Shown piece after piece: positions 4,435 through 57,662 of a DNA stretch of 64,000 nucleotides. The notes under the pieces were generated by a model that made no database searches, was not told the DNA's origin, and worked only from the letters and a program-made list of their open reading frames with translations. The stretch lies in contig NC_012623.1 in assembly GCF_000022485.1 (NCBI RefSeq), positions 2,382,501 to 2,446,500 of the forward strand. Reading direction: 5' to 3'. Source of the stretch: Sulfolobus islandicus Y.N.15.51 (GTDB lineage: Archaea; Thermoproteota; Thermoprotei_A; Sulfolobales; Sulfolobaceae). Every line of letters starts with the position of its first letter. Position 1 is the first letter of the stretch. The position numbers were made by a program, and so were the translations under genes.

Positions 4435-5724
4435 TTAGATACCTAAATCAGTTATAATCTTCATTGCAGCGTTTCTTCCAGGTACTCCAGTAACTTGTCC
4501 TCCTGGGTAAGTTCCAGAACCAGTTACGTACAAGTTCTTAACTGGAGTAGTGTATCCCCAACCTTTAACTGGTCTACCGTCGAACAAGTATTCAGTATAC
4601 ATGGGCATATGATTCATATCTCCGAAGGGGGCATTGTATTCTCTCTCAAGTTTATAAGCATCTAATCTATCAACATGGACCACCTTCTTTTCCAAGTCTG
4701 GGAAGAACTCTTTAGCCTCTTCATAACTACCCATAATTGTCATTACATGACCTCCTAGGCTATTATCAACAGTTGAAGGAATAGTAACTTCACCTATTGG
4801 TAGCGTAAATAACGTATCCGGATGATTTCTCACGTAATCCGGTAGATTTGGTAATTCCCTCAATATTAAAGTATCCCTCTTCCAACCAGGCCTGAACTCC
4901 GGATGATAAACTTTCAGTAATCCGTTGGTCAACTTGTTCAGTAAAACTGGACTTACAGCATTAATAACTATTTTACTCTCAATAATTTTGTCAGCATTGG
5001 TTCTCACACCAGTTGCTACGTTATCCTTTATGATTATCTCATTCACCTTTGTATTGAATATAAAGTCAACACCCAATTGTTTAGCTCTATTCATTAATAT
5101 TTCTCCTACTTTTCCCATTCCTCCCCTCACTATCTTCCAGTCTAGGCTAAAGTAATATGCCAGAACATATGCTGGTAAATCGTACATAAATCCGTATGAG
5201 AAATAAGGTTGAAATTCCTTATCTAGATATTCATTTAGGAACTTTCTAGATGGTTGTGTAAATATCTCAAGTTCAGTTCTTTCTACTGCCTTCATAAAAT
5301 CCTCAAAGGAAGGTGGTTTGGTAACGTATTGCATTTCCTTTTCAATCTTCTCCTTAATCTTGAACAATAATTCCTCCATTTTAGGGTATTTGGTTTGACC
5401 TAGTCGCTTAAACTCCTCAAGTCTTTTCTCCTTATTTCTCCATATATTCACAACCTTTCCATCTTCAGTGACGAAAACGTCAGCAACATCTGAGTCAACT
5501 GTAGGAAAAACTACCCCCAATTCCTCTTGAATTCTTTTAGGAAATAGACCTAATACGTATGACGCCCTGCTATATTTTACTCCCTTATATTCTTCAGTGT
5601 CGCCCATTCCACCGGGCCTATTTCTGGCCTCAATAACTAATACCTTAAGCCCTTTTTGAGCCAAATATATTGAGGAAACTAGACCGTTATGGCCAGCACC
5701 AATAATTATTACATCATATTTCAT
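4435..5724 (-). CDS. FAD-dependent oxidoreductase, phytoene dehydrogenase-like
   Basis: 429 residues. The N-terminal dinucleotide-binding motif is YDVIIIGAGHNGLVSSIYLA, followed by EARNRPGGMGDTEE as in phytoene desaturases. The C-terminal FAD-contact region reads NLYVTGSGTYPGGQVTGVPGRNA. The family comprises cytoplasmic or membrane-associated amine oxidase-like flavoproteins such as carotenoid desaturases. No other carotenoid gene is visible in the window, so the substrate is open. It precedes the DUF488 gene with a two-base gap. Confidence 0.8.
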   Translation of the reverse strand: MKYDVIIIGAGHNGLVSSIYLAQKGLKVLVIEARNRPGGMGDTEEYKGVKYSRASYVLGLFPKRIQEELGVVFPTVDSDVADVFVTEDGKVVNIWRNKEKRLEEFKRLGQTKYPKMEELLFKIKEKIEKEMQYVTKPPSFEDFMKAVERTELEIFTQPSRKFLNEYLDKEFQPYFSYGFMYDLPAYVLAYYFSLDWKIVRGGMGKVGEILMNRAKQLGVDFIFNTKVNEIIIKDNVATGVRTNADKIIESKIVINAVSPVLLNKLTNGLLKVYHPEFRPGWKRDTLILRELPNLPDYVRNHPDTLFTLPIGEVTIPSTVDNSLGGHVMTIMGSYEEAKEFFPDLEKKVVHVDRLDAYKLEREYNAPFGDMNHMPMYTEYLFDGRPVKGWGYTTPVKNLYVTGSGTYPGGQVTGVPGRNAAMKIITDLGI

Positions 5725-6940: not shown

Positions 6941-7101
6941 ATATTCGTGTCAGAGACATGATGACCGATAGGAGACCTAACCCTTTGGTGGAGAAGAATT
7001 AAGTTATCATAAGCCGCATTGATAAATGCATGTGACTATGGATATACTTTCCCCCCAAAAACATTTTAATCCCATGTTAAAGGTTAAAATGGAGTGGTAT
7101 A

Positions 7102-7197
7102 ATGATATTCGAGGAAGAAGAGGACTTATGGGAAGAAGAGGAAGACTGGGACGAGGAAGAAGAGGACTTATGGGAAGAAGAGGAAGAAGAGTGGTAA
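7102..7197 (+). CDS. 31-residue Glu/Asp/Trp-rich acidic microprotein
   Basis: ATG at 7102, stop TAA at 7195-7197. The protein begins MIFEEEEDLW and consists of repeating EEEE-D-(L)W blocks ending in EEEEEEW: 20 Glu, 4 Asp and 4 Trp in 31 residues, with no basic residue. GGAG at 7091-7094 is eight bases from the ATG. A TATA-like ACATTTTAATCC lies some 40 bases upstream and an 18-T run begins 16 bases after the stop, so it has the parts of a complete small transcription unit. No family is recognised. Such a chain could mimic nucleic acid or bind cations or a basic partner, but that is speculation. Confidence 0.55.
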   Translation: MIFEEEEDLWEEEEDWDEEEEDLWEEEEEEW

Positions 7198-7213
7198 AAA
7201 TAGAAGGAAATAG

Positions 7214-7231
7214 TTTTTTTTTTTTTTTTTT
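7214..7231 (+). terminator. 18-T run after the microprotein
   Basis: Eighteen consecutive T on the plus strand follow the stop of the acidic microprotein by 16 bases. Oligo-T is the archaeal transcription termination signal and this is the longest run in the window. It separates the microprotein from the winged-helix gene. Confidence 0.7.
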
Positions 7232-7302: not shown

Positions 7303-8112
7303 GTGAAGAAACCGAAGATCCTGCTAAGCGTTATAAAGAGTTTGTTGGAAAATAACGGACATATTACATCCCGAGAACTTCCTAAATCTAAGAAAGTTTC
7401 ATCTAATCAGTTATACAAGGCTATACTAATCCTCAATAAGTTAGGACTAATTCAAATTGAGGGAGAGTTAAATAATAACAGATTTGAGCTCCACTTGGTT
7501 CGAGACTCCCAATTCCTTAATCTAGAACAAAGGGTTAAAGTTACATTTTATGAGGATAGGAGTAAAACTAAAAGCTTTAAATTTCATACTGTTGCATTAA
7601 AGAATGGCGTATCATATATTGAAGATAATAGTTACTGGTCGGTTGATGATAAGGTTAAAACTAAATTGAAAGTCTATAAGCCTAAAAGGGAATTTGGTAA
7701 AATAATTGTGGAGAAGATCGAACTAGGAGTCCAGAAAGCTTACATTAAACTAACGTTAAATCCACCAACAAGAGTAGGAGAGAAAATAATACATGGATTT
7801 AAAGTAATTCAGTCTAACTACTTCACATTCACGCAAAAGGAAACAATAGAAAGATATGGGGATCCCGAAATGATGGACGGTTTATCAGTAATACAACCTA
7901 CCTTATTCTCGATATTAGAAATTAAGTTCCCCGAGGGTTACAGATTTATAGATGTAAAAGCCGAAAGATACGACTTAGTAGTAATAGATGGTCCTCAAAT
8001 ACCTTCTCCAATACCAAATCATCGTTTAGTTATTGAAAGAAATAGGATTATTCTAAAACTCGTTTATCCAAGTTTTGGCTATTATTTTATTTCTTGGAAA
8101 GCTGCTCAATAA
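7303..8112 (+). CDS. Winged-helix protein with C-terminal beta-rich domain
   Basis: 269 residues from GTG. Residues 1-65 look like a winged helix: KILLSVIKSLLENNGHITSRELPKSKKVSSNQLYKAILILNKLGLI, with a wing-like strand pair after it. Residues 70-269 are predicted largely beta, with no membrane segment, and end in VYPSFGYYFISWK, a closing strand pattern typical of beta-sandwich domains. I do not recognise the C-terminal family. A perfect palindrome abuts the start codon. A DUF973 membrane protein follows after 48 bp on the same strand. Confidence 0.6.
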   Translation: MKKPKILLSVIKSLLENNGHITSRELPKSKKVSSNQLYKAILILNKLGLIQIEGELNNNRFELHLVRDSQFLNLEQRVKVTFYEDRSKTKSFKFHTVALKNGVSYIEDNSYWSVDDKVKTKLKVYKPKREFGKIIVEKIELGVQKAYIKLTLNPPTRVGEKIIHGFKVIQSNYFTFTQKETIERYGDPEMMDGLSVIQPTLFSILEIKFPEGYRFIDVKAERYDLVVIDGPQIPSPIPNHRLVIERNRIILKLVYPSFGYYFISWKAAQ

Positions 8113-57065: not shown

Positions 57066-57362
57066 ATGGTTTTGTCAATCAATAAGGAAAAGTTAGGTGT
57101 AGACAAAGTTATAAGAAATTCGTTAGATTATTGTGACCTATATATCATACAAAAAGGTGACAAAGTGTTTCTTCTATATCTATTTGAGAGAGAAAAATAC
57201 TATTATTTCAAAATAATGCCGGAGATAATTGGGAAATGGGAAGATTGTGAAAACGTACTCTATACTGCAATCGGGCTTTTTGGCTTTGTGAATAAACAAG
57301 ATGAATTGGAACAAAAAATTAGAGAAAAGATGGAGGCGTTAATCAAAAATGTCAACACTTAA
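57066..57362 (+). CDS. Small hypothetical protein upstream of the HAD phosphatase
   Basis: 98 residues with [40 protein letters not shown] and a charged C-terminal helix ([20 protein letters not shown]). No family recognised. Its last 14 bases overlap the start of the truncated first copy of the HAD gene; before the tandem duplication it overlapped the intact gene. GGGTGAAAT lies before the ATG. Confidence 0.5.
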
Positions 57363-57662
57363 TGACTATCAATTAATAATAAGTGATGTAGATGGGGTAA
57401 TAGTAAGAGAAGGGGAACCAATATGGGAAAATATACAAGCGTTAAGGAATATACAAAATAATGGAGTTAAGGTTATATTTGTAACTAATAATTAAAAGAT
57501 GGAGGCGTTAATCAAAAATGTCAACACTTAATGACTATCAATTAATAATAAGTGATGTAGATGGGGTAATAGTAAGAGAAGGGGAACCAATATGGGAAAA
57601 TATACAAGCGTTAAGGAATATACAAAATAATGGAGTTAAGGTTATATTTGTAACTAATAATT
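57325..57662 (+). repeat. Exact 169-bp direct tandem duplication
   Basis: Bases 57325-57493 and 57494-57662 read the same. The unit starts AAAAGATGGAGGCG and covers the end of the small upstream gene, the HAD ribosome site and the first 48 codons of the HAD gene. As 169 is not a multiple of three, the first copy is cut off by TAA at the junction and the second copy keeps the full gene. Confidence 0.9.
57349..57495 (+). pseudogene. Truncated HAD gene start from the tandem duplication
   Basis: 48 codons identical to the start of the intact gene ([20 protein letters not shown]...), ending [10 protein letters not shown]-type sequence then TAA at the junction. It contains only the DxD motif strand and first helix, so it is not an enzyme. 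Confidence 0.85.

Follow-up and report, generated by a model that had tools for sequence, protein, structure and literature searches.

The window analysed here, a stretch of 64,000 nucleotides from Sulfolobus islandicus Y.N.15.51, contains a 31-residue ORF that is, on comparative evidence, almost certainly a conserved protein-coding gene, and in most Thermoproteota lineages tested this ORF adjoins abce1/rli1. ABCE1 (Rli1) is an ATPase of ribosome recycling: once termination is over, it separates the subunits and remains bound to the small one. We propose that the product is a translated, trans-acting and disordered acidic-aromatic partner of ABCE1 or of the ABCE1-30S complex, a reading to which we give a probability of about 0.5; its expression, its action in trans, its binding and the step affected are what we infer. 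The position beside abce1 is the most informative fact about the gene.

The gene and its presumed signals are as follows (window positions).

About 7055 to 7070, + strand: BRE/TATA-like promoter element CCAAAAACATTTTAAT, predicted from sequence, its core kept in the genus
7091 to 7094, + strand: GGAG, Shine-Dalgarno-like, 7 nt 5' of the ATG
7102 to 7197, + strand: coding sequence of the 31-aa acidic-aromatic (E/W) microprotein MIFEEEEDLWEEEEDWDEEEEDLWEEEEEEW, ATG at 7102 and TAA at 7195–7197
7214 to 7231, + strand: T-run right after the stop codon, from this position a presumed U-run transcription terminator

The microprotein consists of 18 E, 4 D, 4 W, 2 L and one M, I and F each, with no K, R or H, in agreement with the earlier note, which had described it as rich in E, D, W and L and free of basic residues. 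Its C-terminal end reads EEW-stop. No other ORF of this E/W type occurs in the 64-kb window, and none was found in 20 Markov-1 random windows. The promoter element lies 32–47 nt 5' of the ATG, a spacing as in archaeal BRE/TATA elements, and includes TTTTAA at 7064–7069, ∼25 nt 5' of the GGAG. Six genomes of the window's genus share its core CCAAAAACATTTTAATC without any change, although the flanking DNA has diverged; the GGAG region, the start codon and the T-run after the stop are likewise kept. The GGAG matches the CCUCC at the 3' end of the mature 16S of S. solfataricus (PMC11698992). The proposal that the ORF has its own promoter and ribosome site is thus well supported by these predicted elements. 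The supposed T18 terminator stands in part: a T-run is found at the same place in the relatives, but with a length of T7 in most of them and T5 in G175, so that T18 appears to be a local homopolymer expansion in the window genome. It is plausible that the run acts as an archaeal U-run terminator; a scan for stem-loop terminators found none, and such a scan says little for archaea. A 269-aa ORF follows 3' of the microprotein at 7303–8112 (+), with a weak match to HTH_11 (E 0.003, below the cut-off); peptide patterns detected no relatives of it in the genome contigs searched.

Six other genomes of the window's genus carry the microprotein ORF, and comparison across Sulfolobaceae reveals the evolution expected of a coding sequence. 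Pooled over eight genera, pS is 0.524 and pN is 0.021 (pN/pS 0.04); the pairs compared are not independent, and seven of the eight genera each show the synonymous excess, whereas the pair of genomes from g4 is free of differences. The earlier note had proposed checking whether the repeat number varies in whole codons. All indels of the ORF in the Sulfolobaceae comparison are whole codons, and frame-breaking changes are absent. That note had also allowed that the GAA/GAG-rich DNA, being a tandem repeat, might have arisen by slippage. This GAA/GAG DNA does score as a tandem repeat, but its evolution is that of a coding sequence. We therefore regard as hardly credible the view that this is a non-coding purine repeat generated by slippage, with an incidental ORF: the synonymous excess and the whole-codon indels reject it, start, promoter and stop are conserved, and 94 divergent relatives keep the same composition with different codons. 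With a pN/pS of this size, a conserved frame and those 94 non-redundant relatives, the idea of a real microprotein gene has been borne out at the level of sequence comparison.

Frame patterns of acidic residues and tryptophan were searched across Sulfolobaceae (reversed-pattern controls gave no matches), and homologues were found in every sampled genus (g1–g10) and in many other Thermoproteota families. The earlier suggestion to look in other Sulfolobales thus yielded members both within Sulfolobaceae and in other families of the order, where the DNA matches are short ORFs of E and W, such as MVVYFEEEWWEEEEEEWEEEEEWWEEEEEW. A strict coding pattern matches 98 of 299 Thermoproteota genomes, and its reverse matches one of 299. 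The pattern was absent from 99 genomes of the phylum of L241 (Sifarchaeum, which we take to be an Asgard lineage), from 36 of the phylum of L247 (Methanothermococcus) and from 40 other archaeal genomes, a search with three of five positive controls recovered; these sets sum to 175 genomes outside Thermoproteota, with a few genomes common to more than one set. A search with an HMM of the family alignment returned four of 31 genomes, most true members being lost, probably to low-complexity correction. Pfam, NCBIfam, PHROGs and the PDB contain no match, consistent with the earlier remark that no family had been described, and we found no report of the ORF in the openly accessible literature searched. 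A viral origin was considered and rejected, since a phage search gave no match and a pattern search of 2.9 million viral contigs gave eight matches, one of them a weak look-alike. A single 30-aa look-alike, MSEKTGEENERTGEEDWEEEDEEEDEEEEW, is encoded on the viral metagenome contig L405 (about 5028–5118, minus strand).

The 94 non-redundant sequences consist of 70% E, 15% W, 6% D and 4% F, and lack K, R and H. The C-terminal residue is W in 75, F in four, and E or M in 15, and an acidic residue precedes the terminal W or F in nearly all (EEW 70, DEW 4, NEW 1, EEF 2, DEF 2, the remaining triplets being non-aromatic). The aromatic residues are evenly spaced (over-dispersed), with lag 5 enriched (z = 5) and lags 1–3 depleted. 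An amphipathic helix with a tryptophan face was rejected as an explanation, as the aromatic moment at 100 degrees is 0.337, compared to 0.353 in shuffled sequences. AlphaFold2 was given the natural read-through of L154 (microprotein, gap and ABCE1), with in-frame stops set as Gly, and a 43-row alignment. ABCE1 was folded well in the model (pTM 0.82), and the first 46 residues had a pLDDT of about 30 and were undocked; a single monomer model with so short a tether says little for or against binding. The prediction supports a microprotein that would be disordered in isolation. One f22 genome contains two paralogues, at L371 (about 4580–4933, +) and L372 (about 4678 onward, minus), in which a ∼70-residue Cys-containing domain with no Pfam match is fused to a microprotein-like E/W tail.

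In other Sulfolobaceae genera, the ORF lies 5' of a gene for a protein of ∼603 residues that contains Fer4_RLI and twin ABC domains. These domains were detected in the window genome's copy of this protein, which is a close match to ABCE1 of S. solfataricus in 6TMF, and the protein is therefore ABCE1/Rli1. In 23 of the 29 Sulfolobaceae genomes for which an abce1 locus was found, the two genes are linked, 22 within about 100 nt and one (G167) at 685 nt. The ORF is located at most 2.5 kb 5' of abce1 in 41 of 65 genomes from other families of the order (26 on the same strand at 53–387 nt, 11 divergent at 601–867 nt, and four further away). Among 31 genomes from elsewhere in the phylum, 17 have the linkage, on the same strand at 53–387 nt, which adds ten more families; all 14 unlinked genomes belong to families f22 and f23. 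Linked loci were also found in Bathyarchaeota, Thermoprotei MAGs, Thermogladius and Aramenus. Among the listed abce1 loci from Asgard archaea, methanogens, halophiles, Thermoplasmata, Nitrososphaeria-type archaea and DPANN, no microprotein was detected; the locus of L294 has one acidic ORF, which is dissimilar to it. A functional link between the microprotein and ABCE1 is likely, because the linkage spans many families. ABCE1 is present with no detected microprotein in, for example, f17, f21, f30 and f35, so the microprotein would not be generally required for ABCE1.

Some lineages have other genes in the neighbourhood. In L374, L390 and L394, a TFS-like zinc ribbon lies between the microprotein and ABCE1, and since this order recurs in these distant lineages, the TFS-like (transcription-cleavage-factor-like) gene may be part of the same module. 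In L374 and L390, an FBPase-like gene is located 3' of ABCE1. A fusion of ABCE1 and microprotein was considered for f21, which has a 924-aa ORF, and was rejected, as the insertion looks like an intein instead. The f21 ABCE1 ORFs (L317, 1138–3903, 921 aa; L318, 90–2831, minus strand, 913 aa) carry this large intein-like insertion directly after CIGCGIC in the iron-sulphur domain. Matches to abce1 with one in-frame stop (TAG, TAA or TGA) were seen in G208, G215, G222 and G229, all of f19, where they are recurrent, and in G099, G165, G169, G187 and G263.

Linkage is lacking in f22 and f23, and also in most members of the genus to which the window belongs, where the ORF stands alone with a promoter of its own. 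Two copies occur in G175, one free-standing and one directly 5' of abce1, while five relatives keep GAGGAAGATTTATTA or a near-identical sequence 5' of abce1; this suggests, as a possibility, a remnant of a lost linked copy. In f10, the ORF and abce1 are divergently oriented. In most of f22, the ORF is unlinked and conserved as MPIWFYREEEEWEEEEELWEEFEEEWEEEEEW or close variants, and in G367 of the same family it is still linked, through a TFS-like zinc-ribbon gene. As the protein is kept when free-standing, divergent or unlinked, a trans-acting peptide is a simpler reading than a leader that acts only in cis, and these arrangements favour action in trans.

With somewhat less confidence than even odds, we further suggest that the microprotein is a previously unknown, phylum-wide recycling cofactor of archaea, acting in trans on ABCE1 or the 30S post-splitting complex and possibly corresponding in function to the acidic-aromatic part of eIF3j. 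The microprotein would be acidic and intrinsically disordered, with aromatics at even intervals along the chain and usually Trp at the end. Its negative spacers and aromatic ‘stickers’ could bind a basic or hydrophobic surface, either on ABCE1 itself or on its post-splitting complex with the 30S, and this binding might tune the recruitment, ATPase activity or release of ABCE1, in a mode similar to that of the acidic-aromatic tails of eIF3j/Hcr1 or the stalk C-terminus. The acidic C-terminal tail of the ribosomal stalk protein aP1, with terminal hydrophobic residues, reportedly acts on ABCE1, and is also an acidic-hydrophobic ligand of this ATPase. Unlike aP1, the microprotein has no ribosome-anchoring domain and no alternation with Lys, and Trp replaces Leu or Phe. 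The acidic region of eIF3j/Hcr1 contains spaced Trp residues, as does the microprotein; to our knowledge, archaea do not have eIF3. As for a connection with ABCE1, eIF3j/Hcr1 is found with it in ribosome-free complexes, and excess ABCE1 suppresses an hcr1 deletion (PMC3836723); both occur together on the post-splitting 40S (PMC10175282), and their functional interaction has been reviewed (PMC12794334). However, eIF3j is folded and dimeric, has about 250 aa and includes basic parts, whereas the microprotein is only an acidic-aromatic chain. No homology was detected, the microprotein being without a Pfam, NCBIfam or PDB match, and the likeness would be an analogy of mechanism only.

Three other explanations share the conserved protein or ORF and differ in what it would do. 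The microprotein might be a general acidic partner, for instance one that chaperones basic ribosomal proteins or buffers polycations, with the abce1 linkage as inherited gene order. We consider this unlikely, if a serious contender. The extreme charge and loose sequence would suit it, as would the unlinked genes of f22 and f23; the neighbours in f23 include S8e-like and SRP19-like genes (names read from sequence). Linkage to one gene nonetheless persists over many families, in same-strand and divergent arrangements, and costly, evenly spaced Trp residues go beyond the needs of a charge buffer. By analogy with Yae1-Lto1, the microprotein might instead be an adaptor for Fe-S delivery that uses its C-terminal Trp to bring an archaeal Fe-S carrier to the FeS domain of ABCE1; this is quite improbable in our estimate. 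We know of no Cia1 subunit in archaea, which counts against it. Lto1 does recruit the Fe-S machinery for Rli1 through its C-terminal Trp (PMC4523923), and as in that Rli1-dedicated adaptor and in the eukaryotic C-terminal TCR tripeptide, [LIM]-[DES]-[WF] (PMC10623007), an acidic residue and Trp or Phe stand at the end of most microproteins. The full tripeptide is not present: none of the 94 sequences has L, I or M at −3, a position that is acidic in nearly all. The microprotein also differs from Yae1-Lto1 in having no deca-GX3 domain, and the members that end in E or M have no terminal aromatic residue at all.

The remaining alternative, improbable to at least the same degree, is a leader peptide acting in cis: a ribosome translating the acidic ORF would be destabilised or paused, which would tie the expression of abce1 to the capacity for recycling, and the peptide as such would have no function. 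This would account for the usual place of the ORF directly 5' of abce1 on the same strand, and for the T-rich gap between them. Acidic nascent chains destabilise ribosomes in bacteria and yeast (PMC9718836), and E. coli MgtL, an example of intrinsic ribosome destabilisation, is an acidic leader on which the ABC-F protein EttA acts (PMC11282234). MgtL is thus comparable as a short acidic ORF 5' of a regulated gene, with its translation tied to an ABC-family factor (PMC11282234), but it acts in cis, whereas the microprotein ORF is also kept where it is unlinked to abce1 or lies on the other strand. An upstream position holds in many lineages, but an upstream ORF on the same transcript, as in MgtL, is lacking in the window's genus, f10, f22 and f23. 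A role in cis on abce1 is impossible for the free-standing gene of the window's genus, the divergent gene of f10 and the unlinked genes of f22 and f23, and the protein is nevertheless kept. Its aromatic spacing and frequent C-terminal W are kept as well, and charge-driven destabilisation alone needs neither.

A trans-acting partner of ABCE1 would matter for several reasons. Few translation factors of archaea and eukaryotes are as well conserved as ABCE1. The S. solfataricus protein (6TMF), from which the copy in the window genome hardly differs, serves as a model structure in the study of ribosome splitting. That annotation libraries lack a conserved gene next to abce1 in one phylum suggests that a part of the recycling machinery has been overlooked. 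If this is correct, the archaeal inventory of that machinery, until now considered almost complete, would gain a new component, and this would be a case of a two-letter disordered microprotein kept under strong selection over very deep time. The microprotein may have been missed for technical reasons, possibly because it is too short for gene callers and masked as low complexity; with no Lys or Arg, it would be invisible to trypsin proteomics. Other small translation proteins had previously gone unannotated: aS33 and aS34 are recently found ribosomal proteins of S. solfataricus, mainly restricted to Thermoprotei (PMC11698992). They were found by structure, as subunits of the 30S, whereas the microprotein is wider in the phylum and linked to abce1.

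Elsewhere in the window, positions 57325–57662 contain a perfect tandem duplication (169-base unit, 2.0 copies, 100% match), which covers the apparent start of an ORF.
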